Part shown: piece after piece, positions 3,209-46,562 of the stretch
How the letters are laid out: the number at the start of each line of letters is the position of its first letter
How positions within the stretch are numbered: the stretch's first letter is position 1
DNA from: Micromonospora nigra
Lineage (GTDB): Bacteria; Actinomycetota; Actinomycetes; Mycobacteriales; Micromonosporaceae
Assembly (NCBI RefSeq): GCF_900091585.1
Contig: NZ_FMHT01000003.1
Span: 620,001 to 684,000, forward strand
DNA length: 64,000 nt
Reading direction: 5' to 3'
Notes under the pieces: model-generated
Told to the model about the DNA's origin: nothing
The model's database searches: none
Seen by the model: the letters and a program-made list of their open reading frames with translations, nothing else
Made by a program: the position numbers and the translations under genes

Positions 3209-17205
<13,997 letters not shown>

Positions 17206-24590: not shown

Positions 24591-25694
24591 TCAGCGGTAG
24601 ACCCGACGGACCCTCGGGCCGACCCGGGTGAGCAGTTCGTTGGGGATGGTGCCGGCCGCCCGCGCCCAGTCGACCAGGGTGGGTTCCCCGGCCGTGCCGG
24701 GCCCGAACAGCACCACCTCGTCGCCGGCCACCACCGACGCGTCCGGCACGTCGACCACGAACTGGTCCATGCACACCCGGCCACTGATCCGACGTCGCCG
24801 GCCGGCGAGCAGCACACTGCCCCGGTTGCCCACCGACCGGGGCACACCGTCGGCGTACCCGGCGGCGACCAGGGCCAGGGTCGTCTGCCCCGTCGTGACG
24901 TACTCGTGTCCGTAGGAGACCGGGGTGCCGGCCGGGACCTGTCGGGCCAGGACGACCGGCGCCCGCAGGGTCATCGCCGGCACCAGGTCGACCGGCGGTG
25001 GCACCGGCAACGGGTTGATCCCGAAGACCGCGATGCCCGGGCGGATCAGGTCGTACGCGGCGGCCGGCACGGCGAGCGCGGCAGCGGAGTTCGCCAGGTG
25101 CCGCAGCCGGGGCGCCACACCGTGCGCGGCGGCGACGTCCAGAGCGTCCGCGAAGGCCGCCAACTGCCGGTCGGTGGACGGGTGCCCCGGCTGGTCGGCG
25201 TTGGCCAGGTGGCTCCACACCCCGACGACGTCCAGCTCGTCGCCGGCGAACTTGCCGGCCGCCAGGACCAGCTCCGGCCATCGGGCGGCGGTGGCACCGG
25301 CCCGCGCGCAGCCGGTGTCCACCTTGAGGTGCACCCGGGCCTGCCGCCCGGTGAGCCGGACGGCGGCCAGGACGTCGTCGAGCACCCACCGGTCGGAGAT
25401 CGAGAGGTCCACTCCGGCCCGGATCGCGGCGGCGAGGTCGTCGCCGGGGCGTGGCAGCCAGCACAGCACGGGGACGGTGATCCCGGCCGCCCGCAGCGTC
25501 AGCGCCTCGGGCAGATAGGCCACGCCCAGCCAGGTGGCGCCGCCGGCGAGGGCGGCCCGGGCACCGGGCACCAGACCGTGACCGTAGGCGTCGGCCTTGA
25601 CCACCGCCATCAACTCGACGGCCCGCAGCCGGCGGAGCGCGGAGACGTTGTGGGCGATGGCCGCCAGATCGACCTCCGCTTCGCACCCGACCAT
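24591..25694 (-). CDS. alr: Alanine racemase
   Basis: 367 residues, the usual size. PLP lysine in VVKADAYGHG near the N-terminus, PLP-binding HLANSAA and RPGIAVFGINP, and the second catalytic base Tyr in SYGHEYVTTGQT; also GRVCMDQFVVDV. It interconverts L- and D-alanine. Most actinomycetes have another alr in a housekeeping locus. Here it lies between the dioxygenase (same strand) and the ACP cassette (divergent), and the NRPS has no epimerisation domain, so this copy may supply a D-amino acid to an A domain; that is inference. The start at 25694 has only a weak ribosome site. Confidence 0.92.
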   Translation of the reverse strand: MVGCEAEVDLAAIAHNVSALRRLRAVELMAVVKADAYGHGLVPGARAALAGGATWLGVAYLPEALTLRAAGITVPVLCWLPRPGDDLAAAIRAGVDLSISDRWVLDDVLAAVRLTGRQARVHLKVDTGCARAGATAARWPELVLAAGKFAGDELDVVGVWSHLANADQPGHPSTDRQLAAFADALDVAAAHGVAPRLRHLANSAAALAVPAAAYDLIRPGIAVFGINPLPVPPPVDLVPAMTLRAPVVLARQVPAGTPVSYGHEYVTTGQTTLALVAAGYADGVPRSVGNRGSVLLAGRRRRISGRVCMDQFVVDVPDASVVAGDEVVLFGPGTAGEPTLVDWARAAGTIPNELLTRVGPRVRRVYR

Positions 25695-25995
25695 CCGCCG
25701 AGTGTGCCGGTCACCCCGAGTCGGCCACAGTGCCTGATCGGGCCGTCCGGTGTGGCGCTCCGCGAGGGGTGGGGCACGGCGGCGCGGGCGGGGCATGGCG
25801 CGTTCAGTCACTTCCGTAGGGCCTGGTCGGGTACGCCGACCGCGATGGTCGACCGGTGGCGGCGAAATGAGTCCCTGGTCCGGGGGGCCCGGGGCCGCCG
25901 CGTCGCGCCTAGCGTCCCTTGCGCAGGTTCCGCGCCGACCGAGGAGCGGGACGAGACCGAGTATCCGCGTGTGGCAGACCGCTGGGAGTCGTGGC
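25695..25995. other. Divergent intergenic region between alr and ACP
   Basis: 301 bp that must hold promoters for alr (leftward) and the ACP cassette (rightward). I see GC-rich runs such as GGGGGGCCCGGGGCC but no confident -35/-10 pair and no copy of the shared 43-bp element. Confidence 0.5.
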
Positions 25996-26244
25996 ATGGA
26001 CGAACAACAGGCGTTGGAGCTGGTCATCCGGCTGGTGGCCCGCGGCCGGGGGGTCGACGAGCGAGCCCTGGGCCCGGAGACGGATCTGGTGAACGACCTC
26101 GGCTTCGACTCACTCGACGCCTCGGAGCTGCTCGCCGCCCTGCACACCGAAACCGGCACCCACGTGCCGATGACCGACCTGTCGGACCTGCGCACCGTCG
26201 CAGACGTCGGACGCGCGTTGACGAAGCAGGAGGCCGCCTCGTGA
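25996..26244 (+). CDS. Acyl carrier protein
   Basis: 82 residues. The phosphopantetheine attachment motif is DLGFDSLDASELL, with the modified Ser in DSL at about residue 38. Start ATG at 25996, preceded by GGGAG. It carries an acyl thioester for processing in trans. Its stop overlaps the next gene by GTGA. The plausible loader is one of the two acyl-AMP ligases (26929 or the left-edge gene); partners could be the di-iron protein, the KASIII at 33495, or the KS at 20460, which has no ACP of its own. Confidence 0.92.
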   Translation: MDEQQALELVIRLVARGRGVDERALGPETDLVNDLGFDSLDASELLAALHTETGTHVPMTDLSDLRTVADVGRALTKQEAAS

Positions 26245-26795
26245 TCACTTCCACCGGTCGACGTATCGACCCCGAGGACCCGGTGTGGATGCTCAACCAG
26301 TACCGCGCCGCCGAGGTGCACGGCGCCGGTGCCATCATGCGGATGGCGCGGCTGGCCGACACCGCGAAGCTGCGCAGCGACCTCTCCCGCCACCTGCGGG
26401 ACGAGGCGGTGCACGCCTGGCTGTGGACCAAGGCCATCGAGGAACTCGGTGGCGAGGTGGTCGACGTCCCCCAGCCCTACCAGGCCCGACTGTCGGCGCA
26501 CTTCGGCATCCCGAAGACCCTCACCGACATGCTGGCGCTGACCCTGGCCTCCGAGAAGCGCGGCCTGGCCGAGTACGAGCTGCACGTCGGTCAGGACGAC
26601 CTGCCGCAGGCGATCCGGCGGCCGATGAAGGCGATCATCCGGGACGAGGCCTGGCACGTGTCCTACATCGAGGAGGCGCTGCAGGAGCGGGCCCGCGAGG
26701 ACAAGCGGATCGACGAGATCATCGCCCGGGCCGAGCAGGCCGACGTGCTGGCGGTCGCGGAACTGGAAGCCGAAGCGGCGACCGCCGGCGGATAG
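26241..26795 (+). CDS. Ferritin-like di-iron protein
   Basis: 184 residues, mostly helical. Two sets of di-iron ligands are visible: Glu in YRAAEVHGAG with ExxH in RDEAVHAW, then Glu in ASEKRGLAEYELH with ExxH in RDEAWHVSYIEEAL. This is the four-helix ferritin-like arrangement used by oxygenases, desaturases and N-oxygenases. The GTG start overlaps the ACP stop (GTGA), so the two are made together. I infer that it oxidises an ACP-bound acyl group, with the reaction unknown. I cannot assign it to a named subfamily. Confidence 0.75.
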   Translation: MITSTGRRIDPEDPVWMLNQYRAAEVHGAGAIMRMARLADTAKLRSDLSRHLRDEAVHAWLWTKAIEELGGEVVDVPQPYQARLSAHFGIPKTLTDMLALTLASEKRGLAEYELHVGQDDLPQAIRRPMKAIIRDEAWHVSYIEEALQERAREDKRIDEIIARAEQADVLAVAELEAEAATAGG

Positions 26796-26858
26796 CGGAG
26801 CGACGACCGCCGGCGGGATGGCACGGCATCGCCGACCCGCGACCCGACCGCCGCTCGC

Positions 26859-26881
26859 GCCGGCCCCGTTGTGGGGCCGGC
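26859..26881. terminator. Hairpin between di-iron gene and acyl-AMP ligase
   Basis: Perfect 9-bp stem GCCGGCCCC / GGGGCCGGC with a 5-base loop, no T-run. It lies 63 bp after the di-iron stop and 48 bp before the next start, so it could terminate, attenuate or protect the first part of the message. Confidence 0.5.
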
Positions 26882-26928
26882 GGGCCGGCGGTACCCCCGT
26901 GAGAGAACACGATTGGCGAGGACTGCCG

Positions 26929-28548
26929 ATGACCCAGCTCGACCTCCCCTCCGCCCCGCTGGTCACCTGGCCCGCCAGCTACGCCACCGACCCGGGGCTC
27001 TGCCTCGAAGAGATCGTCCGACCCTACGGCTCGACGGCGACGGTGAGCTTCATCGACGCCGACGGCAGCCGGGACTCGGTGACCTACGACGTGCTGGCCC
27101 GCCGGATCGCGACGGCGGCGGCCCGGCTGCGCGGGGCGGGCGTGCGGGTCGGTGATCCGGTCGCCATGACCCTGACCAACGACCTGCCCGCGGTGGTGGC
27201 CGCGCTCGGCGTGTGGGCGGCCGGCGGGACCCTCGTCTCGCTGCCGCCATCGCCCCGGCGGGGTCGGGAACTGCACGCGGAACGCTTCGGTGCCGTGCTC
27301 GCGGCGATGGACTGCCGGTTCCACCTGACCGCGCCCGACGACCCGGGCCCGCTCACCGACCGGTTGCGGGCGGTGCCGATCGGCGGGTTGCAGGGCGAGG
27401 AGAGGGTCAGCGACCCCGAACCCGACATCCCCCGCACCGCGCTGGTGCAGTTCACCTCCGGCAGCGTCGGTACGCCCAAGGGGGTGGCGATCCGGGCGGA
27501 CACCTTCGCCGGGCACACCAAGATGATCAGCCGGTGCTTCGATCTGGATCCGGTGCGGGACCGGGTGGCCACCTGGCTGCCGCTCTACCACGATCTCGGC
27601 TTCGTCTGCTTCTTCGGCTCGGCACTGTACTCCCGGACGGGGCAGGTCCACACGGATCCCCGGACGTTCGTGCTGAACCCGGCGCACTGGCTGACCATGC
27701 TCGCCGAGGAAGGAGCCACGATCAGTGGGGCGCCCAACTTCGGCTTCCGGCTCGCCTCCCGGGTGCCCTATCCGGACAAACTCGACCTGTCCCGGATGCG
27801 GTGCTGCCTGAACGCCGCCGAACGGGTGCTCTGGTCGGACGTGGTGGACTTCCACCGGGTCGCCGGTCCGCTCGGCTTCGCCTGGGAGGCCATCATGCCG
27901 GCGTACGGGCTGGCCGAGGGGACGGTCGGGGTGTCGTGCACACCGCGCGGCCGGGGGCCGGTCGAGGGGCCCGGTGGTCACGTCTCGCTCGGTCCCGCCC
28001 TGCCGGGCGCCCGTTACCAGCTCAGGGGCGACGAGACACCCGCGACCCTGCTCATCAGCGGTCAGTGGCTCCTGGAGGGCTACTGGACCGCCGCCGGCTT
28101 CGAGCCCCGGCAGGAGGATCCGTTCGACACCAACGACGCGGCGTTCACCCACGACGGTGAGCTGTACGTCATCGGCCGGCGAACCGAAGTGGCGTCGATC
28201 TCGGGGCACAACGTCTTCGCCGAGGACGTCGAGGCGGGGGCGCTCCGCGCGGGAGGTCCGTCCCTGCTGGGCTGCGCGGCTTTCAAGCACAGCGCCACCG
28301 ACGGCGGCGAACGGTTCGCCCTCGTGCTGGAGATCTCCCCCCGGACGGCGAAGTCGGCGCCGGAGTTGGCGCGTACCGTCCGGGCCGCCGTGTCCGACCT
28401 GCTCGGCACCCGGGTGGCGCCGCTGCTGGTGGTGCAGCAGGGCGTGATCCCGCGTACCACCTCGGGCAAGCCGCGTCGGCCGGCGCTGCGCGAGGCGGTG
28501 CTCTCCGACGGGCTGCCGGCACGGCGGATCCTGGCCGAGCTGAGCTGA
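26929..28548 (+). CDS. Acyl-AMP ligase (ANL superfamily)
   Basis: 539 residues. The P-loop FTSGSVGTPKG, WLPLYHDLGFV, NAAERVLW and YGLAEGTVGVS match fatty-acyl-AMP ligases; the C-terminal lysine region reads IPRTTSGKPRR. It should adenylate an acid and load the ACP two genes upstream. Start ATG at 26929, with GCGAGGA close upstream. It is in the ACP/di-iron unit on the plus strand but separated by 133 bp and a hairpin. The substrate may be a fatty acid or an aryl acid such as anthranilate; the sequence does not settle this. Because the other ligase is frameshifted, this may be the only working one in the cluster. Confidence 0.87.
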   Translation: MTQLDLPSAPLVTWPASYATDPGLCLEEIVRPYGSTATVSFIDADGSRDSVTYDVLARRIATAAARLRGAGVRVGDPVAMTLTNDLPAVVAALGVWAAGGTLVSLPPSPRRGRELHAERFGAVLAAMDCRFHLTAPDDPGPLTDRLRAVPIGGLQGEERVSDPEPDIPRTALVQFTSGSVGTPKGVAIRADTFAGHTKMISRCFDLDPVRDRVATWLPLYHDLGFVCFFGSALYSRTGQVHTDPRTFVLNPAHWLTMLAEEGATISGAPNFGFRLASRVPYPDKLDLSRMRCCLNAAERVLWSDVVDFHRVAGPLGFAWEAIMPAYGLAEGTVGVSCTPRGRGPVEGPGGHVSLGPALPGARYQLRGDETPATLLISGQWLLEGYWTAAGFEPRQEDPFDTNDAAFTHDGELYVIGRRTEVASISGHNVFAEDVEAGALRAGGPSLLGCAAFKHSATDGGERFALVLEISPRTAKSAPELARTVRAAVSDLLGTRVAPLLVVQQGVIPRTTSGKPRRPALREAVLSDGLPARRILAELS

Positions 28549-34659: not shown

Positions 34660-36864
34660 TCACCGGACGGAGTCCCGGGCGGTCACCAGTTCCGGCCGCG
34701 CCGCGGCGGAGCCGTCGTGGTCGTCCGTAGGACGTCGGAGGACGCGGGGCGTCCACCAGTTCGCCCGTCCGAGGACGGTCATCGCCGCCGGCAGCACCAA
34801 CGCGCGGATGATGGTGGCGTCGATCAGGATCGCCGCGGCGAGCCCGATCCCGATCTGCTTCATGTCGATCGTGGAGAGCGTGCCGAAGATGGCGAAGACC
34901 GCGACCATGACCACCGCCGCGCTGGTGATCACACTCGCCGAGGCGGTGATGCCCTGCGCGACCGCGTCCCGGTCGCCGGCACCACGGCGCACCGCCTCGC
35001 GGATCCGGCTGACCACGAAGACGTGGTAGTCCATGGACAGCCCGAACAGGATGACGAACAGGAACAGGGGCAGCCACGACACCACCGCGTCGATGGACCG
35101 GAAGTCGAGCAGGCCCTCCGCCCAGGTGCCCTGGAAGACCACTGTGACCAGGCCGTAGGCGGCGGCCACGGAGAACAGGTTGAGCACGATGGCGGTGAGT
35201 GCCACCACCGGAGCCCGGAAGGTCACGGCCATCACGAGGAAGGTCAGCAGCAGGACGAAGCCGATGACGAGCGGCAGCTTCGCACGGACGTGCTCCGCGT
35301 AGTCGAGGTCACTGGCCACCGGCCCGCCCACGGCGTACTCGGCGCCGGGAACACCGGCCACGGTGGCCGGTAACAGTTCCCCGCGCAGTTCGGTCAGGGA
35401 GTCGCGGGCCTGCTCGGTGCGCGCCGGATACGGGGTGGAGACGCGCAGCGTGCTGGTCCGCCCGTCGGCCGAGACGTCGATCGCCGGTTCCGGCCGCTCG
35501 TGGGCGAACAGCGGGTCACTCAGCGTGCGCCGGTGCAGATCGGTCAGCGCCGCGCGTACCTCCCCGGACCGCTCGGCCGGGGCACGCACCACCACCTGGT
35601 GGGCGATGCCGGTCGACGGGAAGGCGGCGGTGAGCCGGTCGTAGCCCTGCATGACGGCGGTGGATCGCGGAAGGTCCTCGGTACCGGGAAAGCGCAGCCG
35701 CATGTCCAGGGCGGGCGCGGCCAGCGCCAGCAGCAGCCCCAGCGACACCGCCAGGGTCAGCCAGGGGTGACGCAGAGCGGGACGCAGGATCACCGGCCAC
35801 AACCGGGACCGGCCGCCCCGGTTGCCCAACCGCCACAGCACCGGCACCCTCGGCCGGTCCACCCGGGGACCGAGCAGGACGAGCAGCGCAGGCAGGACGG
35901 TCAGGGAACCGACCATCGCGACGGCGATCACCAGGATCGACCCGGTCGCGAACGAGGCGAAGACGGCGTCGTTGGCCAGGTAGAGCCCGGCCATGGAGAC
36001 GATGACGGCGACTCCGGAGACGATCACCGCGTGACCCGACGTCTCCGCGGCGATCTCCACCGATCCGAGCCGGTCCGCCCCCCGGAGCCGCTCCTCCCGT
36101 TCACGCCGCAGATAGAACAGGGAGTAGTCGACCCCGACCGCCATCCCGATGAGCAGGACGACGCTGTTGACGGAGTTCACCGCGGGCACCAGGTGACTGG
36201 CGAGCGTGGCCAGGCCGATGGCGGCACCGACCGCGGAGAGCGCGAGCAGGACGGGCACCGCGGCCGCCACCAGCGCGCCGAAGGCGACCACGAGGATGAG
36301 CAGGCTCACCGGCAGACTGGTGAACTCCGCTCGACGGAAGTCCCGGGCGAGAGTCTCGTCGAGACCCCTCTGCACCGAAGCCTCACCGACCTGTTCGACC
36401 CGCAGCCGGGGATGGGATCGCTGCACCTCCTCGGTGGCGGCGAGCAGCGGCTCGATCCGCGTCTTCGCGGTCTGCGCGTCGTCGGTCAGGGTGAGCCGCA
36501 CGAGGACGGCGTCCCCGTCCGGAGCCTCGAGTGGGCCGGTGACCGAGGCGACCCCGGGCTGGGTGCGCATCACCTCGACGGTGCGCTGTGCCGCCGCCAT
36601 CGCCGCTGCCCGGTCCAGCCGGCCCGCCCGCGCGGTGATCAGCACGTTCTCGGTCGCCCGCTCGTCGAAGCCGCCTGCCCTGACGAGGGCGACCGCCCGC
36701 CCGGACTCCCCGACGGCGCCGTCCTCCACGGACATCTCGTTGACCTCGACCAGCGCCCCGGCGGTCAGACAGGCGGCCACGAAGACGACCCAGAGCGCGA
36801 TCGCCCGCCAGGCGTGTGCGGCACTCCAGCGGGCGATCCGAACGGTCAAGGGCTTGTTCTGCAC
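34660..36864 (-). CDS. MmpL/RND-type transporter
   Basis: 734 residues in two similar halves, each with one N-terminal membrane helix, a large extracytoplasmic domain and a five- to six-helix block, as in MmpL proteins. Signatures include VGVDYSLFYLRREREE in half one and FGLSMDYHVFVVSRIREAV in half two, the proton-relay Asp-Tyr motifs. GTG start at 36864 (VQNKPLTVRIARW) with GGAGG upstream; the longer ORF is not membrane-like. It probably exports the cluster's product, using proton motive force. It is divergent from kynureninase (290 bp apart). Confidence 0.92.
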   Translation of the reverse strand: MQNKPLTVRIARWSAAHAWRAIALWVVFVAACLTAGALVEVNEMSVEDGAVGESGRAVALVRAGGFDERATENVLITARAGRLDRAAAMAAAQRTVEVMRTQPGVASVTGPLEAPDGDAVLVRLTLTDDAQTAKTRIEPLLAATEEVQRSHPRLRVEQVGEASVQRGLDETLARDFRRAEFTSLPVSLLILVVAFGALVAAAVPVLLALSAVGAAIGLATLASHLVPAVNSVNSVVLLIGMAVGVDYSLFYLRREREERLRGADRLGSVEIAAETSGHAVIVSGVAVIVSMAGLYLANDAVFASFATGSILVIAVAMVGSLTVLPALLVLLGPRVDRPRVPVLWRLGNRGGRSRLWPVILRPALRHPWLTLAVSLGLLLALAAPALDMRLRFPGTEDLPRSTAVMQGYDRLTAAFPSTGIAHQVVVRAPAERSGEVRAALTDLHRRTLSDPLFAHERPEPAIDVSADGRTSTLRVSTPYPARTEQARDSLTELRGELLPATVAGVPGAEYAVGGPVASDLDYAEHVRAKLPLVIGFVLLLTFLVMAVTFRAPVVALTAIVLNLFSVAAAYGLVTVVFQGTWAEGLLDFRSIDAVVSWLPLFLFVILFGLSMDYHVFVVSRIREAVRRGAGDRDAVAQGITASASVITSAAVVMVAVFAIFGTLSTIDMKQIGIGLAAAILIDATIIRALVLPAAMTVLGRANWWTPRVLRRPTDDHDGSAAARPELVTARDSVR

Positions 36865-37154
36865 GTCGGCGTTGCCTCCACGTGAACGACCCCGAAGGGC
36901 CCCGGACCGGCGACGGCTCCGATGGCCGGGCACCCGGTGATTACGCTCCTGCGGGAGCGGCGAGGTCCGACCGAATGTAGGAAGGGCCGGGCGGGGTGAC
37001 ACGACCGGATCGAGCACCCCGACCGGGCACCTCGAACCGCCGCCCGGGCCACCGGGTCGGGCAGGGGGTGTCGCGGGTGGGCCGGTCGGGCAGACCGATC
37101 GGACACGGTGGCCCCTCCTGCCGGGCGGTAGACCTGAGGGGAAGGGAGTGCCGC

Positions 37155-38417
37155 ATGCGAGATGACTTCCCCCGGTACCTGGCCAAGGAACTGGATGTCG
37201 CCGATCCGTTGGCCGAGCTGCGCGACCGGTTCGTGATCAACGACGACGACCTGATCTACCTCGACGGCAACTCCCTGGGGCGCCTTCCGGCCGCGACGCC
37301 GGACTTCCTGGCCCGGCTGGTGCGCGACGGCTGGGGCACCGGTCTCGTCCGGTCCTGGCCGACCTGGATCGACTGGGGCAGACGGTTGGGCGACCAACTC
37401 GCCCGGCATGCCCTCGGTGCCCGGCCGGGTGAGGTGGTCATCTCCGACTCCACCTCGGTCAACCTCTACAAGCTGGCGGGTGCCGCCCTGGACGCCACTC
37501 CCGACCGGGGCACCATCCTCGTCGACGCGGAGGAGTTCCCGACCGACCGCTACATCCTCCAGGGCCTGGCCGAGCAGCGGGGCCGCATCCTGCGGAGGCT
37601 GCCCTCCGACCTCGATCAGGGGCTCCGGCCCGACACGCTACGGGCCGCGCTGGACAGCGACGTCGCACTGGTGGTGCTCTCCGCCGTCTCCTACCGGTCG
37701 GGCGCGCTGCTGGACATGGCGGCCGTCAACGCGGCGGCCCGGGAGGTCGGGGCGTACGTCCTCTGGGACCTGTCGCACGCGGTCGGCGCGGTCCCGGTGC
37801 AGCTGACCGCCTCCGGCGCGGACCTGGCCGTCGGGTGCACCTACAAGTATCTCAACGGTGGGCCCGGCGCCCCCGCCTTCCTCTACGTACGCGAGGAGTT
37901 GCAGGCCACCCTGCGCCAGCCCATCTGGGGCTGGTTCGGCCAACGCGACCAGTTCCAGATGCGGTCCGACTACGAACCGGCGGGCGACCTCGACCGCTTC
38001 CTGGTCGGCACCCCGCCGATCCTCTCCGTGGCCGCTGTCGAACCGGCGTTGGCGGTGTTGGCGGAGGCCGGCATCGAACGGATACGGCAGAAGGGGCTCC
38101 GGCTCGGTGAGCTGATCGTCGAACTGGCGGACGCCTGGCTGGCCCCACACGGCTTCTCGCTCGCCTCGCCCCGCGATCCGCACCGGCGCGGCGGTCACGT
38201 GTCGTTGAGCCACCCCGAGGCCCTGCGGATCTCCCGGGCGCTCGCCGCCGAGGCGCGCGTGGTCGGCGACTTCCGGGTCCCCGACCGACTCCGGCTGTGT
38301 GCCGCTCCGCTCTACACCCGCTTCGTCGACGTCTGGGACGCGATGGACCGGCTCCGGGACGTCGCGGAGCAGCGGTCCTACCTGCGACTGCCCGCGACGC
38401 CCTCCAGGCTCACCTGA
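37155..38417 (+). CDS. kynU: Kynureninase
   Basis: 420 residues, the usual length. YLDGNSLGRLP, ISDSTSVNLYKL, DLSHAVGAVPVQL, and the PLP lysine in GCTYKYLNGGPGAPAFLYV are all kynureninase hallmarks; the enzyme cleaves kynurenine (or 3-hydroxykynurenine) to anthranilate (or 3-hydroxyanthranilate) and alanine. ATG at 37155 with GGGAG seven bases upstream; in-frame upstream codons are low-complexity. Together with the dioxygenase at 23581 it supports local anthranilate supply. The alanine released could also feed the nearby racemase. It ends convergent with the ArsR gene. Confidence 0.95.
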   Translation: MRDDFPRYLAKELDVADPLAELRDRFVINDDDLIYLDGNSLGRLPAATPDFLARLVRDGWGTGLVRSWPTWIDWGRRLGDQLARHALGARPGEVVISDSTSVNLYKLAGAALDATPDRGTILVDAEEFPTDRYILQGLAEQRGRILRRLPSDLDQGLRPDTLRAALDSDVALVVLSAVSYRSGALLDMAAVNAAAREVGAYVLWDLSHAVGAVPVQLTASGADLAVGCTYKYLNGGPGAPAFLYVREELQATLRQPIWGWFGQRDQFQMRSDYEPAGDLDRFLVGTPPILSVAAVEPALAVLAEAGIERIRQKGLRLGELIVELADAWLAPHGFSLASPRDPHRRGGHVSLSHPEALRISRALAAEARVVGDFRVPDRLRLCAAPLYTRFVDVWDAMDRLRDVAEQRSYLRLPATPSRLT

Positions 38418-38507
38418 GCCGGGCCCGGCCCGGACGCGGCAGACCACCTGCTGCGATGGCGTGACCAGGGGTCGGGTGCAGGGCGTCGCGAAGCTGCTCG
38501 GACGCCT

Positions 38508-38522
38508 CCGGCGCGGCGCCGG
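38508..38522. terminator. Inverted repeat between kynureninase and ArsR genes
   Basis: CCGGCGC-G-GCGCCGG, perfect 7-bp arms in the 121-bp convergent gap. The loop is too short for a classical terminator as written, so this is weak support for a shared stop site. Confidence 0.3.
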
Positions 38523-38538
38523 TCCTCGACGCCGCCGG

Positions 38539-38910
38539 TCAGCGGGTCTTCTTCGTCGCCCGCTTGCGAGGCGGCGTCAACGATTCGGCGATCGCCGCGA
38601 TCGCGGACGGCACCAGGCGGTAGTACGCCCAGACACCCCGTTTGTCGCGCTCGATCAGACCGGCCTCGGCGAGGATCCGAAGGTGATGACTCACGGTCGG
38701 CTGGGACAGCCCGAGCGGCTCGGTGAGGTCACTGACGGACGCCTCCCCTTCCGGGGCGGACTGGATCAGGCTGAGCAGCCGCAACCGGGCCGGGTCGGCG
38801 AACGCTTTCAGCACCCCCGCGAGCCGCTCGGCATCGGCGCGTTCGATCGGCTCGCCCGCGAGGGGCGAGATGGCAGGCGTCGTAGTCTCCACGGTTCCCA
38901 CGTCATGCAT
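38539..38910 (-). CDS. ArsR-family winged-helix regulator
   Basis: 123 residues from ATG 38910. The helix-turn-helix core is ASVSDLTEPLGLSQPTVSHHLRILAEAGLIERDKRGVWAYYRL, standard ArsR/SmtB. It lacks the ELCVCDL-type metal-binding cysteines, so the signal is probably not a metal. It ends in a lysine/arginine-rich tail. The start is not fixed: no good ribosome site is visible, and GTG codons a few residues downstream are alternatives. A dyad at 38907-38926 overlaps the start, consistent with autorepression. It sits at the boundary of regions A and B, so it could regulate either kynureninase or the lanthipeptide genes. Confidence 0.88.
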   Translation of the reverse strand: MHDVGTVETTTPAISPLAGEPIERADAERLAGVLKAFADPARLRLLSLIQSAPEGEASVSDLTEPLGLSQPTVSHHLRILAEAGLIERDKRGVWAYYRLVPSAIAAIAESLTPPRKRATKKTR

Positions 38911-38926
38911 CGTTGCAGCAACATGC
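38907..38926. promoter_or_regulatory. Dyad over the ArsR start, likely autoregulatory operator
   Basis: GCAT-C-GTTGC-A-GCAAC-ATGC: two 5-bp arms flanked by GCAT/ATGC with a one-base bulge on one side. It overlaps the proposed start codon, a common place for ArsR-family operators. Confidence 0.5.
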
Positions 38927-39039
38927 CCGTCAGGCCGGGAAAACGAGGGGCGAATCACGGCGAGTTCGCAAGGAGGAGGATCCGGCACCCGGCCGTCGCC
39001 GGCTACGTCCCGCCGTGATCCGGGTGCGGTGGTCGCCGG

Positions 39040-40413
39040 TCAGGCGGTGAAGACGGCGTCCGGGTCGTAGCGGGCCACGGCACGACGTACCCGGTCGACG
39101 TTTCCGCCGTGGTAGGCGGCGTCCAGCGGCGAACGGCCAGGTTCCGGGTAGTTCGGATAGATCCGCCCAGAGCCCAGTGGATGGGTGATCGCCCAGGACC
39201 GGTCGACCCACCGCTGTGTCTCCTGCCGGACGTCGGGAGTGCTCCGGCGGATCGTGTAGCCGGTGTGTTTGAGAATGAAGCGGGCCCGGCGGTGGACGAA
39301 GGCGGTGGCCTGCGGGGCGACCCGACCGTAGGCACCGCCCCAGGGGATGAACTCCAGTTCGCGTGCCTGCCCGGTGACCCGGCCGGTGGTCAGGTGCCCG
39401 ATCAGTGCCGCCACCACCGCCGGGGTCAGGGTAGCGTCGAAGAACTCGGAGCGGGCCAGCCGACGGCCCGGCGAGGTTCCCCAGGGCGGGCCGGTCACCT
39501 CAAGATCCTCGGGTAGCTCGGGGTAGCTCACCGCTGCCGCGACGCTGGCCGGCAGGTCACGGATGGCGACCTGCTCCGGTTCGGGGGCGAACCGGTCCAG
39601 GAACGCGGTCCCCGCGCCGACGCTCACGCCGAACACGGCAACCCAGGGCTCCTCTGCGGGGTCGTACGGGCCGATCAACCCGACCTCGGCGTTGATCTCG
39701 TCGGGTGCCTCCGGCGCCCAGCTCAGCCAGGTCCCGATGATGTCGGCCGCGTGCCGTACCGGCCACCGGCACTCGAAGAACGTCGCCGGTACCGCTGGCC
39801 GGGTTCGCAGCACGAACGAGGTGACGGCACCGAGCAGTCCGCCGCCGGCGCCCCGCAGCGTCCAGAACAGCTCCGGTTCACGCTCGGCGTCACACCAGAG
39901 GATACGGCCGTCGGCGAGTACCACCTCGGCGGCGACCAGATGGTCACTGCCCAGTCCGTAGAGGCGGCTGAGGCTGCCGTATCCGCCGCCGAGGACCGCA
40001 CCGCCGAGGCCGACGTCCGGACACCAGCCACAGGAGACGGTCCGGTCGTCGACGGCCAACTGACGCCGCAGCTCGTGCATGCGCAGCCCGGGGCCGGCGG
40101 TGACCAGGTCGCCGTCGCGGCGCAGCTCCCGCAGGGCACCGAGGTCCAGCAGCAGCCCGGTGGTGCTGGACCGGTCGGCGAAGCTGTGCCCGCCGCTGCG
40201 CAGCGCCACGTCCAGCCCGTGGGTCCGAGCGAAGGCCAGGGCCGCCGAGATGTCGGCGGTACCGGCGGCCCGCACCACGGCCTGCGGTAACCGCTCGTCG
40301 CCGACGGCGAGAAACGGCAGCCGGCAGCTGACGTACTCCGGGTCCGACGGGGTCAGCAGATGCCCGGTCAGCTGGTCGGCGAGTCGGGTCAACGGTGCTG
40401 GAGCGACAACCAC
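39040..40413 (-). CDS. BBE-type FAD oxidase with predicted bicovalent flavin
   Basis: 457 residues, PCMH FAD-binding fold plus berberine-bridge C-terminus (NYPEPGRSPLDAAYHG, then NVDRVRRAVARYDPDAVF). The two flavin-linking residues are visible: His in LRSGGHSFADRS and Cys in CGWCPDVGLGG. Such enzymes oxidise alcohols, amines or sugars, or make C-C/C-N bonds, with O2 as acceptor. GTG start at 40413, with GGAGGAC four bases upstream; it overlaps the ABC gene end by 25 bp, so it belongs to the lanthipeptide operon and follows the exporter. It has no obvious signal peptide. I infer a tailoring oxidation of the lanthipeptide, a pairing I do not know from a characterised pathway. Confidence 0.9.
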   Translation of the reverse strand: MVVAPAPLTRLADQLTGHLLTPSDPEYVSCRLPFLAVGDERLPQAVVRAAGTADISAALAFARTHGLDVALRSGGHSFADRSSTTGLLLDLGALRELRRDGDLVTAGPGLRMHELRRQLAVDDRTVSCGWCPDVGLGGAVLGGGYGSLSRLYGLGSDHLVAAEVVLADGRILWCDAEREPELFWTLRGAGGGLLGAVTSFVLRTRPAVPATFFECRWPVRHAADIIGTWLSWAPEAPDEINAEVGLIGPYDPAEEPWVAVFGVSVGAGTAFLDRFAPEPEQVAIRDLPASVAAAVSYPELPEDLEVTGPPWGTSPGRRLARSEFFDATLTPAVVAALIGHLTTGRVTGQARELEFIPWGGAYGRVAPQATAFVHRRARFILKHTGYTIRRSTPDVRQETQRWVDRSWAITHPLGSGRIYPNYPEPGRSPLDAAYHGGNVDRVRRAVARYDPDAVFTA

Positions 40414-42266
40414 GGGTCCTCCGCCATGCGGGCCTGTAGGAGGGACAGTTCGGCGTACCGGCCACCGCGGGCGAGCAGCTCCTGATGGCTGCCCTGCTCG
40501 ACGATCTCCCCCTCGTGCAGCAGGTAGATGCGGTCACAGTTGCGGACACTGGCCAGGCGGTGCGTGATCAGGACGACGGTGCGCCCGACGGCCAGCCGAC
40601 GCAGCGCCTCGTAGACCGCGTACTCGGCCCGGGCGTCGAGCGGAGCGGTCGGCTCGTCCCAGATCAGTACGGGCGCGTCGCGGAACAGGCCCCGGGCCAC
40701 CGCGATCCGTTGCCACTGGCCGCCGGAGAGGTCGACACCACCCTGGAAGGCGGTGGTCAGCAGGGTGTCCCAGCCGGCGGGCAGCGGATCGACGACCTCG
40801 TCGGCCAGTGCCTGCCGGGCCGCCCGCCGCAGGGCCGAGTCATCCGGGTCGGCCCGGTCGAACCGTCCCATCCGGACGTTCACCCGGGCCGAGTCCGGCC
40901 AGCGGACCGGATCCTGCAGCACCATCATGATCCGGTCCGCGACACTCTCCGGGTGCAGCTCGGCCAGCTCCGTGCCGTCCCAGGTCACCGAGCCGGTGGT
41001 CGGGCGGTACAACCCGGCGACGACCTTCGCCAGCGTCGTCTTGCCGGAGCCGTTCTCACCCACCAGTGCCACCGTCTGCCCGGCGTGCAGGGTCAGGTTC
41101 ACCCCGCGCAGCACCGATGCCGACGAGCCGGGATAGCGGAAGCCGACGTCACTTAGCTCGATGCGCTGCGGTACGGCCGGCGCCGCCGCCCCCGTCGCGG
41201 GACGGGTACGGGTTCCGGCGTCGGCGAGGAACGCGTGGAAGTCGGCGACGTACAGGCCCTGTTCGAACAGCTGGTCCGCGGTGCGTACCAGTCGAGCCAG
41301 CGCGGCCACGGCGGTGCGGGTGGCGATCAGGGCCGTACCGGCGACGGCCAGCGGGATCCAGTTGGCGTGCAGCAGCAGCCACAGGGCCGCGAAGACACCA
41401 CCGAGGGCGACGCCGGCGAGCAGCCGGCCCCGGGCACGGGCCCGTACCTGCGCCGACGCGACCTCGATCTCCTCGTCGCGTACCAGGTCGGCGGCCTGCC
41501 GGTAGCGGCTCAGGACGCTGTCGCTGGCCTGGGTGGCCCGGACCTCGGCGGCCGGTTCCCGCTCCGTCGCGAGGTCGGTCACCATCGCCACCCTGCGGTT
41601 GAGTGCGACCAGTCGGGCGTTGCTGGCGTAGCCGAGCCGGGCGGCCCGGAGCGCCGCCCAGCCGTCCGGGAGCACGGTGATCAGCAGTACCGGCAGCAGC
41701 ACCGGGTGCAGTACGGTCAGGCTGATTGCCGCCGCGGTCACGGCCAGCACCGCGCCGACCGCCTCGGCCAGGTTGTCGACGACGCGTTGCAGGTAGAGCA
41801 GACCACGGTCGCGGGCCCGGAACATGCGGTCGAGGAACCGTGGATCGTCGAACGCGGTCAACTCCACCGACAGGCCGGCCGCGACGAGTCGTTCGTCGGC
41901 GAGCCGGCGTACCGCCGGGGCGATCCGAGCCTGGGCGAGGGTGGCGGTGATCTCCAGACCGGCCCGCGCGGCCAGGGCGAGGACGACCAGGGCGAGAGCG
42001 GGCAGGGCGGCGGCCACCCGGGTGCCGGTCGGCCCGGCGGCGAAGAGTCGTTCCAGCACCCCGGCGGTGGCGACGAGCCCGTAGGTGGTGGCGACGCCGG
42101 CGAGCAGGTGCAGCGTGAGGACCGTCCAGGCGGCACGGGGCGCGGCCTGCCGGATCAGCTGCACGGCGGGTCCGAGCGCGCCCGGCAGGCCCCGGACGAC
42201 CTGCCAGGGGCCCATCTGGTCGGTCGGTGTCTCCAGTCGCCAGTACGGCGCGGTCACATCGGTCAT
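40389..42266 (-). CDS. ABC exporter (fused permease-ATPase), no C39 domain
   Basis: 625 residues: a six-helix ABC exporter membrane domain (about 35-330) followed by the ATPase with Walker A VGENGSGKTT, signature LSGGQWQRIAVARG, Walker B PVLIWDEPTAPLD and the switch His in LITHRLASV. The N-terminus starts directly near the membrane domain, without the C39 peptidase domain typical of LanT, so leader removal must be done by another enzyme. ATG at 42266 is 8 bp after the LanM stop. It probably exports the lanthipeptide. Confidence 0.9.
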   Translation of the reverse strand: MTDVTAPYWRLETPTDQMGPWQVVRGLPGALGPAVQLIRQAAPRAAWTVLTLHLLAGVATTYGLVATAGVLERLFAAGPTGTRVAAALPALALVVLALAARAGLEITATLAQARIAPAVRRLADERLVAAGLSVELTAFDDPRFLDRMFRARDRGLLYLQRVVDNLAEAVGAVLAVTAAAISLTVLHPVLLPVLLITVLPDGWAALRAARLGYASNARLVALNRRVAMVTDLATEREPAAEVRATQASDSVLSRYRQAADLVRDEEIEVASAQVRARARGRLLAGVALGGVFAALWLLLHANWIPLAVAGTALIATRTAVAALARLVRTADQLFEQGLYVADFHAFLADAGTRTRPATGAAAPAVPQRIELSDVGFRYPGSSASVLRGVNLTLHAGQTVALVGENGSGKTTLAKVVAGLYRPTTGSVTWDGTELAELHPESVADRIMMVLQDPVRWPDSARVNVRMGRFDRADPDDSALRRAARQALADEVVDPLPAGWDTLLTTAFQGGVDLSGGQWQRIAVARGLFRDAPVLIWDEPTAPLDARAEYAVYEALRRLAVGRTVVLITHRLASVRNCDRIYLLHEGEIVEQGSHQELLARGGRYAELSLLQARMAEDPWLSLQHR

Positions 42267-42274
42267 CACGGCGC

Positions 42275-45200
42275 CTACCGGATCGGGTCGGGTGGACCGG
42301 GGTCGGGCAGCAGAACGGAGGGAAGAGGGCTTCGCGGGTGCATTCGGAGCAGCTGGTAACCGATGCCACCGAGGCCGAGCAGCAGTCCCGGCCGGAACGC
42401 GTCCCGGTTCGGGCCGGCGACCGCCCCGAACTGCTCCATGCCGGTCAGGACCCGGGCGTCGAGCGCGGCCAGTTCCGGGTCGGCTGGTGCCAGGCCGGCT
42501 CCGCGCGCCGTCCGTAGCAGTTCCCAGGTGCCCAGCTCGCCGTGACAGAGAGTGTGGTTGGCGCCCATCCCCGCCGGCCAGGCTGCGGCGGCGGCACGGC
42601 GCAGCACGCCCGCCCAGTGCGTGGCGGCGACCGGGTCGCAGGCGCGACGCCACCGGTCGGCAGCCACGATACCGATGCCGACCGATCCGTGGCACCACGC
42701 CGCCGCGTCGCTCGGCCGCTCCGGCTTACGCATGTCGAGCCAGCCGGGCAGCCGGGGGTCGTACAAGGACTCCTCGTAGCGGAACGCGGCGGCGGCCAGG
42801 TCGGCGCAGTCGCGCAGATGGGACAGGGCCCAGCCGATGCCGGTAGCGCCGTGGGAAAGTCCGCCCAGGGCGTCGGTGCCGAACGGCCCCGGCCACCACA
42901 CGGCGTCCGGGTCCCCGCCGGCCGGGCGGGCGGTTGCCCGCAGGTGTCCGCCGATCGCGGTGGCCGTCTCGGCCCACCGCGGATCACCGTCCGTCTCGGT
43001 CAGGCGCAGCAGCGGTACGATCGCGCCGGCCGACCCGCGGAGCAGGTCGTACGCCTCGTCGGCCCGGACCGCGGCGGGCACCAGCGCGGCGAGGGCCCGC
43101 GCACGGCGCAGCGCCTCGTCGGTCGCCGTGCCGCCCCGGCCGGTGCCGTGCCGGTCGGTCCCGCCCCGGCCGGTGCCGTGCCGGTTGCCGGCACGCAGGC
43201 CGGCGTCGCCCCGGCCGAGACGACGCAGCAGCAGCCAGCCCCAGATCCGGGACCCGAGCCCGACGTAGCCACCCGACGGCTCGGGCCGGATGGGGATACC
43301 GGTGGCCCGGTCGGCCTCGACCTGGTCCTCGGCGGCACGCACGGTCGCCAGGACGGCGTCGAGCAGTTCGGCGACGCCGTCCACCGGATCGGCCCGTCCC
43401 GCTGTGGTCTCGTGCTGGTAGGCGGCGAGCAGGACCGCGATTCCGACGGTGCCGAGGTACATGTCGGCGGTCAGCGGTTGCACCGCCCACCCGGAACCGG
43501 CGGTGATGACCGGTGCGATCCAGGTGGCGGTGCCGTCCTCCGCCCGGACGGCGGTGTCGCGCAGCGTGCGGACGACCTCGGCGGCGAGCGTGCGGCGGCG
43601 CCGGTCGAGATCTTCCGGACGGGTTCGCCGGGGGATCAACGGCGGACCGGGCGGTGCGGGCGGCGCTTCGTTCAGGTAGGCGCTGATGAGGCTGGAACTG
43701 AGCACCTGGCGGTCCAGCTCCGGGTCGGCGTCGCGCCAGCGGCCCAGCGTCTCGGAGATCAACGTCCGGTCGGCGGCCGTCGTGAACATGGGTATGTCCC
43801 CGACGAGCAGGTCATCGACCTCGGTGGCGACGACCTCCGGTTCGGCGGGTGCCTCCGCGGCGTGTCGGCCGTGCCTGATCAGCAGGTCGGTGACTGTGGC
43901 CCGGGCCGCCGGCTCGTCGTGCAGCGACGCCGGGTGCCACAGCATCCGGGCAAGTTCGGCGTACGTCTCGGTGTTGCGGCGGACGAACCGCACCTGGCAT
44001 CCGACGAAGTCGGTGAGCAAAGGGTCGAGGCGGCCGTGCCGGTCGAGTTCCCGTAGTCGGTCGGTCAACTCGTCGAAGGCCGTCCGGACGTCCCCCCAGA
44101 ACCGGGCCAGGACCGGTTCGGGGCTCGGCTGGTTGGCGGCCTCCGGGGCGCCGACGTCGGCGAGGGCGACCCGCACCTGGTCGGTGCCCTCGTCGACGAG
44201 CACCGGCAGGGACACTGTCGGTTGTTCACCGCGCAGCCCACCGGCGCCGGACGGGTCGAGTCCCCGCCAGGCCAGTGCGACACCCCGCCCGGGTAGCAGA
44301 CCGGTGCCCAGCACCGACGAGTTCAGGGTACGCGCGGCCCGGTCGGTGGCCAGCCCGTAGCCGGACGGCAGCAGCGGCAGCTGCGGCGTGAACAGGGTCT
44401 CGCAGTCGACGATCACCGGCACCGGTCCGGCGGCGATGAGGTTCTCCGCGTGCAGGTCGCTGCCGCCCAGCATTCGCATCACCGCGGTCCAGTGCCCGAG
44501 TCCGCGGTAGAAGGCGCGCAGCTCCTCGTCGGTCGTGCAGTACCGGTGGGCGACGTGGGCGGCCCAGCCGTGGTCGTCGCGGACCAGGACGGTGGGTACC
44601 CGGATCCGGGTGGCCGGTGGCTCGTCGGGCAGCAGCCGGGCCACGAGTCCGGCCAGGGCCGCGTCGACGCGCAGGGACCGTGGCTTGTAGACGACCGTAC
44701 CCGCGGCACATCGTGCCAGCGCGACGGTCTGCCCGCCGCGGTGGGTGTCGCCGGAGCCGAACTCGACGTCGAGCAGTGTCGGATCGCCCGCCGGCAGCAC
44801 GGCGGCCGGCTGGAGGTGGCTGCGGTCGACGGCGAATCGGTGCGCGAATCGCACCACCGCGTGGCGGCTGTTCACCAGGAGCGTGTCGACGCGTCGACGC
44901 AGAGTCGGGAAGCGGCCGTCCATCGTCGACCAGAACCCGTCCGTGGCGGTCAGCTCCAGCCAGTGCTCCCAGCGGGACCGCGGGTCCGGGCCGGTCAGCC
45001 GGCCGCTGATCCGGGCGGCGTGCACGTCCAGCACCAGTGCCCGGGTCACCTTGGGGCGTACCGAGTTCCGCCATGCCCGCGTCGCGCTGTTGAGGATCGC
45101 CGTCCGCTCTTCGCCGCCGAGGCCCGCGACGGCATCGAGCTGGTCGACCAACCGTTGTGCCTGTGGTGCGATCAGATGTTCGAGCACGGGGTCGAAGCTC

Positions 45201-45352
45201 GTCGACGCCCCGGCCGGTACCTCGGTCACCGAACCCGTCACACGATCCGCGACCGCCCTGCGGGCCGCCGGTGGCGGCGCGGTCGCCGGTGTGGTTGCCG
45301 CGGTCGCCGGTGCTGGCGTGGGTCCGACGGTGGTGGTGCCGGCGGATTCCAC
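42275..45352 (-). CDS. lanM: Class II lanthipeptide synthetase LanM
   Basis: About 1,025 residues. The N-terminal dehydratase domain (about 50-600) carries VVYKPRSLRVD and GGSDLHAENLIA, kinase-like phosphorylation/elimination residues; the C-terminal LanC-like cyclase (about 640-1020) has the zinc ligands in AAWCHGSVGIG and HTLCHGELG. It dehydrates Ser/Thr of the precursor and adds Cys thiols to form (methyl)lanthionines. An internal 10-residue duplication RHGTGRGGTD lies between cyclase helices. The N-terminus is uncertain: GTG at 45352 is in frame, but the first 45 residues are Ala/Thr/Pro-rich, no clear ribosome site precedes it, and an ATG at 45399 is in a different frame. It lies 54 bp after the precursor gene. 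Confidence 0.94.
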   Translation of the reverse strand: MESAGTTTVGPTPAPATAATTPATAPPPAARRAVADRVTGSVTEVPAGASTSFDPVLEHLIAPQAQRLVDQLDAVAGLGGEERTAILNSATRAWRNSVRPKVTRALVLDVHAARISGRLTGPDPRSRWEHWLELTATDGFWSTMDGRFPTLRRRVDTLLVNSRHAVVRFAHRFAVDRSHLQPAAVLPAGDPTLLDVEFGSGDTHRGGQTVALARCAAGTVVYKPRSLRVDAALAGLVARLLPDEPPATRIRVPTVLVRDDHGWAAHVAHRYCTTDEELRAFYRGLGHWTAVMRMLGGSDLHAENLIAAGPVPVIVDCETLFTPQLPLLPSGYGLATDRAARTLNSSVLGTGLLPGRGVALAWRGLDPSGAGGLRGEQPTVSLPVLVDEGTDQVRVALADVGAPEAANQPSPEPVLARFWGDVRTAFDELTDRLRELDRHGRLDPLLTDFVGCQVRFVRRNTETYAELARMLWHPASLHDEPAARATVTDLLIRHGRHAAEAPAEPEVVATEVDDLLVGDIPMFTTAADRTLISETLGRWRDADPELDRQVLSSSLISAYLNEAPPAPPGPPLIPRRTRPEDLDRRRRTLAAEVVRTLRDTAVRAEDGTATWIAPVITAGSGWAVQPLTADMYLGTVGIAVLLAAYQHETTAGRADPVDGVAELLDAVLATVRAAEDQVEADRATGIPIRPEPSGGYVGLGSRIWGWLLLRRLGRGDAGLRAGNRHGTGRGGTDRHGTGRGGTATDEALRRARALAALVPAAVRADEAYDLLRGSAGAIVPLLRLTETDGDPRWAETATAIGGHLRATARPAGGDPDAVWWPGPFGTDALGGLSHGATGIGWALSHLRDCADLAAAAFRYEESLYDPRLPGWLDMRKPERPSDAAAWCHGSVGIGIVAADRWRRACDPVAATHWAGVLRRAAAAAWPAGMGANHTLCHGELGTWELLRTARGAGLAPADPELAALDARVLTGMEQFGAVAGPNRDAFRPGLLLGLGGIGYQLLRMHPRSPLPSVLLPDPGPPDPIR
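43131..43185. repeat. Direct repeat inside lanM (25 bp, period 30)
   Basis: Two identical 25-base copies (43131-43155 and 43161-43185) give the duplicated RHGTGRGGT in the cyclase domain. It is in frame and probably a recent slippage event, in a loop that tolerates insertions. Confidence 0.7.
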
Positions 45353-45406
45353 GACGGCGGGGGTGCCCGCGTGTGCCCGGGGGCCGAGGTACCGGTCATG
45401 TCCGGA

Positions 45407-45619
45407 TCAGCAGCAGGCGATGGGCCGGGACCCGGTGCAGGAGCTGCAGTTGCTGCTCGGCGGCGAGATGGTCATGGTGATCTCCTGCAGGGCGTACTCG
45501 CCGCCGGTGAAGAGGTCACCGGCCGGGTTCTCCCAGCCGTCGACCGACGTGTCGGTCAACCAACGGGTGATGATCTCCTCCGCCTGCACCGGGTCGACGA
45601 CGGACAGCGTGGTGGGCAT
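45407..45619 (-). CDS. lanA: Class II lanthipeptide precursor
   Basis: 70 residues, immediately before LanM. The leader is acidic with a possible signature ENPAGDLFTGGEYALQEI; the C-terminal part is Ser/Thr/Cys-rich with Cys at 58, 61, 69 and 70, ending ACC. A GG at 39-40 is a possible class II cleavage site, which would give a 30-residue core from Glu41; cleavage nearer Thr50 would leave about 20 residues. Candidate dehydration sites are Thr48, Thr50, Ser52, 55, 56, 59, 60, Thr62 and Ser64. ATG at 45619, with GAGGAG upstream. I recognise no characterised lantibiotic in the core. Ring pattern cannot be predicted from sequence alone. Confidence 0.88.
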   Translation of the reverse strand: MPTTLSVVDPVQAEEIITRWLTDTSVDGWENPAGDLFTGGEYALQEITMTISPPSSNCSSCTGSRPIACC

Positions 45620-45767
45620 ACGAATCCACTCCTCACTTTGATTGACTTCTATATGCGATTATTCGGGCCCGCGCTTGCCGGCACCTTCCCCGCTGCTGTC
45701 CGGACGGTTCCTGCCCCGTGCCCCGACCACTACCGTGGATGCCCAGTGGCCGACGCGGGGAGTTGCG

Positions 45768-46562
45768 TTGGAAGTACGGGTCCTGGGGCCGGTCGAGGTG
45801 GTCGTTCACGGCAGGCCGGTCCGCCTCGCCAAGCGACAGCACCGATTGATCATGGGCATCCTGAGCATTCAGGCCAACAGAGCCGTCCCGAGTGCCCGAC
45901 TGGTCGAGCTGCTGTGGGGAGACCGGGCACCAGCCCGGCCGAGGGCCGTACTGCACAGCCGCCTGTCCGAGCTACGCGCCGTGCTACGCACGGCCGGCGG
46001 AGTCACCGTCCAGCAGGCGATCGTCACCGGCGACGACGGATACACGCTACGAATCCCGAATCGGATGGTGGACGCCCACCTCTTCGAGGCACTGGTCGCA
46101 GAATCCCGAACAATGAACTCAGATATGCAACTACGAGACAAACTCCGGCAGGCCCTGCGGCTGTGGCGCGGATCCATCCTGGGTGGTTGGTCATCGACCG
46201 GCCCCACGGACGCCCTGCTGCGGAGTCTGGAGTCAGCCCGCCTGACCGCTGCCGAAGACCTCTACGAAGCCGAACTGCGGCTCGGCAACCACACCTCCAT
46301 CACCGACGAGATCACGGCGCTGTCCGCCGCGCATCCGACCCGGGACCGGTTGACGGCGGCGGCGATGCTCGCCCTGCACCGGGCCGGGCGCAGCGCGGAG
46401 GCGATCGGCGTCTACCACCAGCGTCGCGTCTGGCTCGCCAGCGAGCTGGGAGTCGACCCGGCACCCGCGCTGCGGCACCTGCACGTCGCCGTGCTGCGAC
46501 ACGATCCCGCCCTGAACCGCCAGCCCCCGCTGCCCGGGTCCGAAAGGCCCACGCCAACCTGA
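45768..46562 (+). CDS. SARP-type (BTAD) transcriptional regulator
   Basis: 264 residues from TTG 45768 (LEVRVLGPVEV), with GGGGAG six bases upstream. The N-terminal winged helix is OmpR-like (RLAKRQHRLIMGILSIQANRAVPSARLVELLWGDRAPARPRAVLHSRLSELR), followed by a bacterial transcriptional activation domain ending ELGVDPAPALRHLHVAVLRHDPAL. Streptomyces antibiotic regulatory proteins of this size activate nearby biosynthetic genes. It is divergent from lanA across 148 bp, so it is the likely activator of the lanthipeptide operon. The longer ORF from 45642 has no fold homology. Confidence 0.9.
   Translation: MEVRVLGPVEVVVHGRPVRLAKRQHRLIMGILSIQANRAVPSARLVELLWGDRAPARPRAVLHSRLSELRAVLRTAGGVTVQQAIVTGDDGYTLRIPNRMVDAHLFEALVAESRTMNSDMQLRDKLRQALRLWRGSILGGWSSTGPTDALLRSLESARLTAAEDLYEAELRLGNHTSITDEITALSAAHPTRDRLTAAAMLALHRAGRSAEAIGVYHQRRVWLASELGVDPAPALRHLHVAVLRHDPALNRQPPLPGSERPTPT

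Follow-up and report, generated by a model that had tools for sequence, protein, structure and literature searches.

What does an FAD oxidase of the berberine bridge enzyme (BBE) type do in a lanthipeptide operon? To our knowledge, the lanthipeptide tailoring enzymes described so far belong to protein families other than BBE-type oxidases, and lanthipeptide oxidations rest on only a handful of enzyme families. The question is raised by a 64,000-nt stretch of Micromonospora nigra DNA (the window), in which a minus-strand gene row reads lanA, lanM, ABC exporter and BBE-type oxidase, with a SARP gene divergent on the plus strand. These five genes, named in the initial annotation, were all recovered by open reading frames, Pfam and NCBI models (Table 1).

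Table 1. Genes of the lanthipeptide operon and its divergent regulator, in window positions.
Feature	Coordinates	Strand	Description
lanA	45407..45619	-	70-aa lanthipeptide precursor, DUF6229 (PF19740 90.1 bits, cut-off 25)
lanM	42275..45352	-	class II lanthipeptide synthetase; start codon inferred (GTG 45352)
ABC exporter	40389..42266	-	625 aa; ABC_tran; start inferred (ATG 42266)
BBE-type FAD oxidase	39040..40413	-	457 aa; FAD-binding PCMH-type domain (PF01565, FAD_binding_4) 102.9 bits, cut-off 26.4
SARP-type regulator, divergent	45768..46562	+	BTAD 118.9 bits; start inferred (TTG 45768)

The mechanical open reading frame of the exporter spans 40389-42698, and the exporter proper begins at about 42266. 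The row had been described as an overlapping operon, which holds for the exporter and oxidase genes only (about 25 bp of overlap); lanM and the exporter gene are separated by about 8 bp and, with GTG 45352 taken as the start of lanM, lanA and lanM are about 54 bp apart. The same gene order was found at loci L035, L045 and L046, where LanM and the oxidase are 63-80% identical to those of the window, and the row is thus beyond chance. A SARP gene likewise diverges from lanA in G074, G308/Salinispora, G364 and G398.

To the right of the operon, the next gene encodes a RecD2 helicase. An empty insertion site was sought by way of this RecD2 neighbourhood in 41 genomes; none was found, and in the five stretches fetched RecD2 alone aligned to the window. 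On the other side, genes for an MMPL transporter, a kynureninase and an ArsR-type regulator (34660-38988) lie between the lanthipeptide operon and a separate PKS-NRPS set on the minus strand (3205-23471). This set comprises a KS-AT PKS, an NRPS of one module and an NRPS of 4666 aa; in the latter, Condensation and AMP-binding stretches occur four times each, and an NAD_binding_4 reductase is found near the end. The set is adjoined by an alanine-racemase protein (24591-26966).

LanM scored 466.6 bits against the class II model TIGR03897 (threshold 304), and its DUF4135 (dehydratase) and LANC_like (cyclase) domains were both above their cut-offs, with two CHG motifs. Judged by these matches, the window genes are a class II lanthipeptide pathway. 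The exporter gave no Peptidase_C39 match in the Pfam scan at E ≤ 0.01, the domain that would mark a bifunctional LanT, and none of the operon proteins matches a protease family in Pfam, in agreement with the initial annotation on both counts. The leader GG is lost in L036, L051, L008 and other relatives, which fits the absence of C39 from the exporter.

The LanA precursor lies directly upstream of lanM and has a leader and a Ser/Thr/Cys core, a pairing that is kept across loci. Its C-terminus reads SSNCSSCTGSRPIACC, and the core can be written S56-N-C58-S-S-C61-T62-G-S64 ... C69-C70, with four core Cys, two of them C-terminal. The core had been thought to match no lantibiotic. As worded, this is not supported: LanA is a member of DUF6229, a family already published as lanthipeptide precursors, with the product rhodanocin (available text of PMC9576775), and further class II DUF6229 lanthipeptides are reported from Lysobacter (available text of PMC11451712). 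According to the former text, the rings of rhodanocin (LanII, Dyella sp. 333MFSha) join residue 6 to Cys11, Cys8 to residue 14, and residue 12 to Cys23. Aligned to these reported positions, the spacing 6-11, 8-14 and 12 equals that of S56, C58, C61, T62 and S64 in LanA. The rings of the window peptide are therefore likely S56-C61, C58-S64 and T62 to C69 or C70, as predicted from this spacing. At L049 (G398; 4042-6135), five DUF6229 precursor reads precede lanM; none has a CC end, and one looks cut short.

We then considered the oxidase itself. Its C-terminal BBE domain (PF08031) scored 17.5 bits, below the cut-off of 20.6, and PF08031 is precomputed for many of its homologues at 45-58% identity. 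The best match among solved sequences was 9p1o (2e-44). The paper holding 9p1o, 9p1p and 9p1r concerns Clz9 and Tcz9 and, in its available text, gives His67, Cys125 and Tyr402 for Tcz9 (PMC12632287). We take 9p1o to be Tcz9 because these residue numbers agree with our alignment, in which His76, Cys131 and Y419-x-N421 of the window oxidase align to residues 67, 125 and 402 of 9p1o (bicovalent FAD and the Y/FxN motif). The earlier designation as a bicovalent-flavin BBE-type oxidase thus appears sound at the level of aligned residues. The structure model of the oxidase has a pLDDT of 93.2 and supersedes one from a shallow alignment that scored 58; its best PDB matches (Foldseek) are EncM and BBE-like oxidases. 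By eye, the N-terminus shows no Sec- or Tat-like signal.

In EncM one of the two covalent FAD bonds is lost, as the available text of PMC12632287 has it. Since EncM with its one covalent bond is named an oxygenase and the window oxidase has both residues, plain oxidase chemistry would be favoured here. In addition, bicovalent FAD permits open active sites and larger substrates, according to the available text of a 2024 BBE review (PMC11375781), which would suit a peptide substrate. These residues vary among the linked oxidases. The flavinylation His is replaced by Asn in the whole Salinispora branch (L035/L047, P0015-P0023), with the Cys kept; the L051 oxidase is without the Cys131 equivalent; and L055, L059, L061 and the Myxococcaceae/Burkholderiales branch have YxG in place of YxN. 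The oxidase chemistry may therefore be non-uniform across lanthipeptide-linked copies.

The linkage between oxidase and lanthionine synthetase was followed from the oxidase side. A search of 354 genomes of the family gave 26 matches in 22 genomes, the window's own included, and 21 of the 26 were examined (20 fetched loci and the window; G213, G227, G228, G230 and G231 were left out). A lanthionine synthetase gene is found no more than a few kb away from 14 of these oxidases, among them all ten of the ten that scored highest. The other seven (L054, L056, L057, L060, L062, L063 and L064) have no synthetase nearby when checked against two LanM and one LanL-type synthetase.

A profile search of named genomes with an oxidase alignment yielded ten loci, of which six are complete lanA-lanM-ABC-BBE rows: Salinispora fenicalii, three Nonomuraea, Pyxidicoccus and a record titled Comamonas sp. 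KCTC 72670. Among the remaining four, L040 and L041 begin in the exporter gene, L043 begins inside the oxidase, and in that of Salinispora cortesiana (L044) the exporter and oxidase genes are broken into fragments, and neither lanA nor lanM was found. DUF6229 was present in eight of the nine searched genomes behind the oxidase-found loci, S. cortesiana being the exception. The record titled Comamonas (L039, BNCN01000010.1) groups with Myxococcaceae, and its title may be wrong, since searching the family of its genome led to Pyxidicoccus (G805) and to identical matches.

Taken together, 21 of 24 oxidase-bearing DUF6229 rows, the window included, have the order lanA-lanM-ABC-BBE (L035 and L047 are one locus present in two collections), and this order spans Micromonosporaceae, Nonomuraea, Myxococcaceae and Burkholderiales. 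The case in which the oxidase is never conserved with lanM in homologous loci did not occur, and the pairing was kept in many of them. Because L035-L064 were found via the oxidase, the frequency of linkage among them does not represent DUF6229 loci at large.

Searches that started from the precursor gave a different sample. DUF6229 proved rare among the relatives of the window, scoring above cut-off in three of 151 genomes, its own included, and in a sample of the phylum it was found in one of 396 genomes, the window's own. It was above cut-off in 29 of 145 genomes in the order of Pyxidicoccus, in 29 of 96 in the family of G806 (the same matches) and in 5 of 299 in the family of G807. The 30 matches of the Pyxidicoccus order comprise two seeds, 24 fetched loci and four near contig ends that were left out (G1175, G1176, G1180, G1222). 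Among the 24 fetched, seven have lanA-lanM-ABC-BBE, 16 have lanA-lanM and match neither the exporter nor the oxidase, and the last is on a contig that stops short of lanM. G959, from the G807 family, has the oxidase; G964, G1046 and G838, from that family too, have lanA-lanM-ABC without it, and the contig of the seed is broken off. G143, which belongs to the window's order, is without oxidase. Exporter and oxidase are scored as absent where phmmer gave no match at E ≤ 1e-15 in the fetched stretch. Loci L131 and L136 stop ahead of the oxidase gene, which their genomes have on L040 and L041.

Of the precursor-found loci, 28 from outside the window's clade were counted: 8 with the oxidase and 20 without. 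This total excludes the seeds (G805, G806, G807), L117, whose contig does not reach lanM, and G074, itself a member of that clade. The oxidase is thus the mark of a single branch within the DUF6229 operons and not of them all. A profile search of genome contigs with a precursor alignment gave no confirmed locus.

Some copies are incomplete. In G074, of the window's genus, L007 retains lanA and lanM but just the end of the oxidase gene, and an exporter was not found; the L128 oxidase gave a partial match only. With these copies and that of S. cortesiana (L044), the oxidase step is seen to be dispensable. The decaying copies occupy 6681-10172 of L007 and 4675-7163 of L044.

The precursor cores were compared with regard to the oxidase. 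A Cys-Gly-Thr-x-Cys core was present in 8 of 8 oxidase-bearing loci (the L128 oxidase being partial) and in 0 of 20 oxidase-less loci among the 28 outside the clade; the split computes at 3e-7, which is no true probability because the loci are related. We tried to identify the substrate residue by this covariation and rejected the approach: the window's clade, which carries the oxidase, has CSSC instead, and no residue stood out. The core C..(.)C[ST].S...CC occurs in DUF6229 precursors both with and without oxidase and so points to no particular atom as the oxidised one.

The oxidase and LanM have diverged together. Across 21 loci (L007, L047 and L128 left out), the correlation between their pairwise distances is r = 0.954, a value that includes a contribution of shared species history and that none of 2000 permutations reached. 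In the BBE tree, from which L043, L044 and L128 were left out as short, the window falls in a fully supported group together with G364, G398 and Salinispora. At least four label changes are needed on this tree, so the DUF6229-linked oxidases are clustered and do not form one clade.

The same type of oxidase was found beside other lanthipeptide genes. At L052, L053 and L058 it comes after a LanM of another kind (28-30% identity) and an exporter gene, and a SARP gene is divergent; the L052 LanM scored 939.5 bits against TIGR03897. The precursors there have the motif [ST][ST]xCT[KQ] and a CCC end (L052 3662-3856; L053 3251-4200, three copies; L058 4186-4389). Their leaders resemble the mersacidin/lichenicidin family, with TIGR03898 scores of 27.6 for L058, 23.5 for L052 and 21.3 for L053 (cut-off 23.5). 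At L048 (2631-9598) and L050 (8977-15278) the oxidase has as neighbours a class III/IV-type synthetase (RamC_N/kinase/LanC) and a prolyl oligopeptidase; close by are short candidate precursors that contain Cys and an ALELL motif. The L050 synthetase, the one of the two that was scanned, scored 1008.3 bits against the class IV model (cut-off 650). Seven precursors from these loci were scanned, and none had a Pfam family above cut-off.

An oxidase that travels with LanM in distant bacteria points to an undescribed finishing step on these peptides. We think that it is probably a dedicated cytosolic BBE tailoring oxidase, acting on the LanM-modified DUF6229 peptide before export. On this proposal, LanM would dehydrate and cyclise the C-terminal Cys-rich core of the precursor, and the oxidase would then take two electrons from the modified peptide in the cytosol by means of its bicovalent FAD and O2, with H2O2 as by-product. 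The outcome could be a dehydrogenated residue, a carbonyl or an extra bond (a mass shift of about -2 Da, or a product quenched by water), and the fourth Cys would be left over for another ring. The ABC exporter would secrete the product, and the leader would be cut by a protease encoded elsewhere.

A two-electron change of -2 Da is also compatible with an oxidase that acts on thiols, forming a disulfide between Cys left free by LanM, such as the terminal pair, and not oxidising carbon. The cores hold four or more Cys, and all 119 relatives among the matches listed (119 of 999) end in CC. However, the terminal Cys pair is also present in 20 of 20 oxidase-less precursors outside the window's clade, whereas none of the five precursor reads that adjoin the oxidase at L049, including the one that looks cut short, ends in CC. 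Moreover, the BBE-family reactions given in the available text of PMC11375781 are alcohol, amine or amide oxidations and ring closures. We consider disulfide formation unlikely.

It is likewise improbable, in our estimation, that the oxidase acts on a small molecule, or generates H2O2 for its own sake, and leaves the peptide untouched. Its solved relatives Tcz9/Clz9 and EncM do oxidise small molecules, but the window oxidase co-diverges with LanM, and its type is linked to three sorts of lanthionine synthetase. Both the decayed copies in G074 and S. cortesiana and the frequency of oxidase-less DUF6229 operons would be expected of a gene that sits in the operon by chance with no role in the pathway. 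Such a passenger would hardly keep a fixed position in the gene order across distant groups, show a correlation of 0.954 with LanM, or be accompanied by DUF6229 in eight of the nine genomes searched behind the oxidase-found loci; we regard this explanation as very improbable.

We accordingly return to a tailoring oxidase as the preferred reading. In a broader form, the BBE branch would be a lanthipeptide tailoring family of its own, serving class II (two sorts) and class IV-type pathways in Actinomycetota, Myxococcota and Pseudomonadota and installing a carbon-centred oxidation undescribed in lanthipeptides; here we see the chances as evenly balanced. A tailoring role of the oxidase, co-inherited with LanM from Actinomycetota to Myxococcota, would provide a new and directly testable post-translational step. 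The oxidase could serve as a marker to find more such operons and as an O2-driven biocatalyst that should require no reductase partner, and the DUF6229 peptides, with few characterised products, would gain a second, tailored branch.

The initial annotation had called a BBE oxidase unusual as a lanthipeptide tailoring enzyme, and this is borne out in the literature covered. Among the matches listed from the open literature, judged by title and start of abstract, none places a BBE oxidase in a lanthipeptide pathway; subscription papers lie mostly outside this set and may hold such a report. The main text of the BBE review (PMC11375781) has no occurrence of 'RiPP', 'ribosomal' or 'lanthi', and that of a study of lanthipeptide clusters (PMC7268733), supplement apart, has none of 'berberine' or 'PF01565', while its available text mentions FAD-dependent oxidoreductases for class IV clusters. 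Among the papers listed, one, PMC12402327, contains both 'lanthipeptide' and 'berberine bridge enzyme'; its available text assigns the BBE-like oxidase to fibrostatin biosynthesis and the lanthipeptide to another cluster.

Compared with known systems, the window operon shares with rhodanocin its DUF6229 precursor and class II LanM. Unlike LanA, with four core Cys, a CC end and a shorter last segment, rhodanocin has three Cys, the last closing a large ring C-terminally (available text), and the main text of PMC9576775 has no occurrence of 'oxidase', 'oxidoreductase' or 'FAD'. The Lysobacter lanthipeptides agree with the window in precursor Pfam family and class; their Cys/Ser/Thr positions are unlike those of rhodanocin by their authors' account, and the available text names no oxidase. 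With Clz9/Tcz9 and EncM the window oxidase shares the fold and the FAD domain, and His76, Cys131 and Y419 correspond to the Tcz9 residues, but EncM is only 26-27% identical to it in the structure alignment, and the substrates of these enzymes are small molecules. Finally, known lanthipeptide tailoring comprises LanD decarboxylases, sulfur oxidation, halogenation and LanJ reductases in the available text of PMC7268733, and the window has in common with these systems an additional redox enzyme within a lanthipeptide operon.
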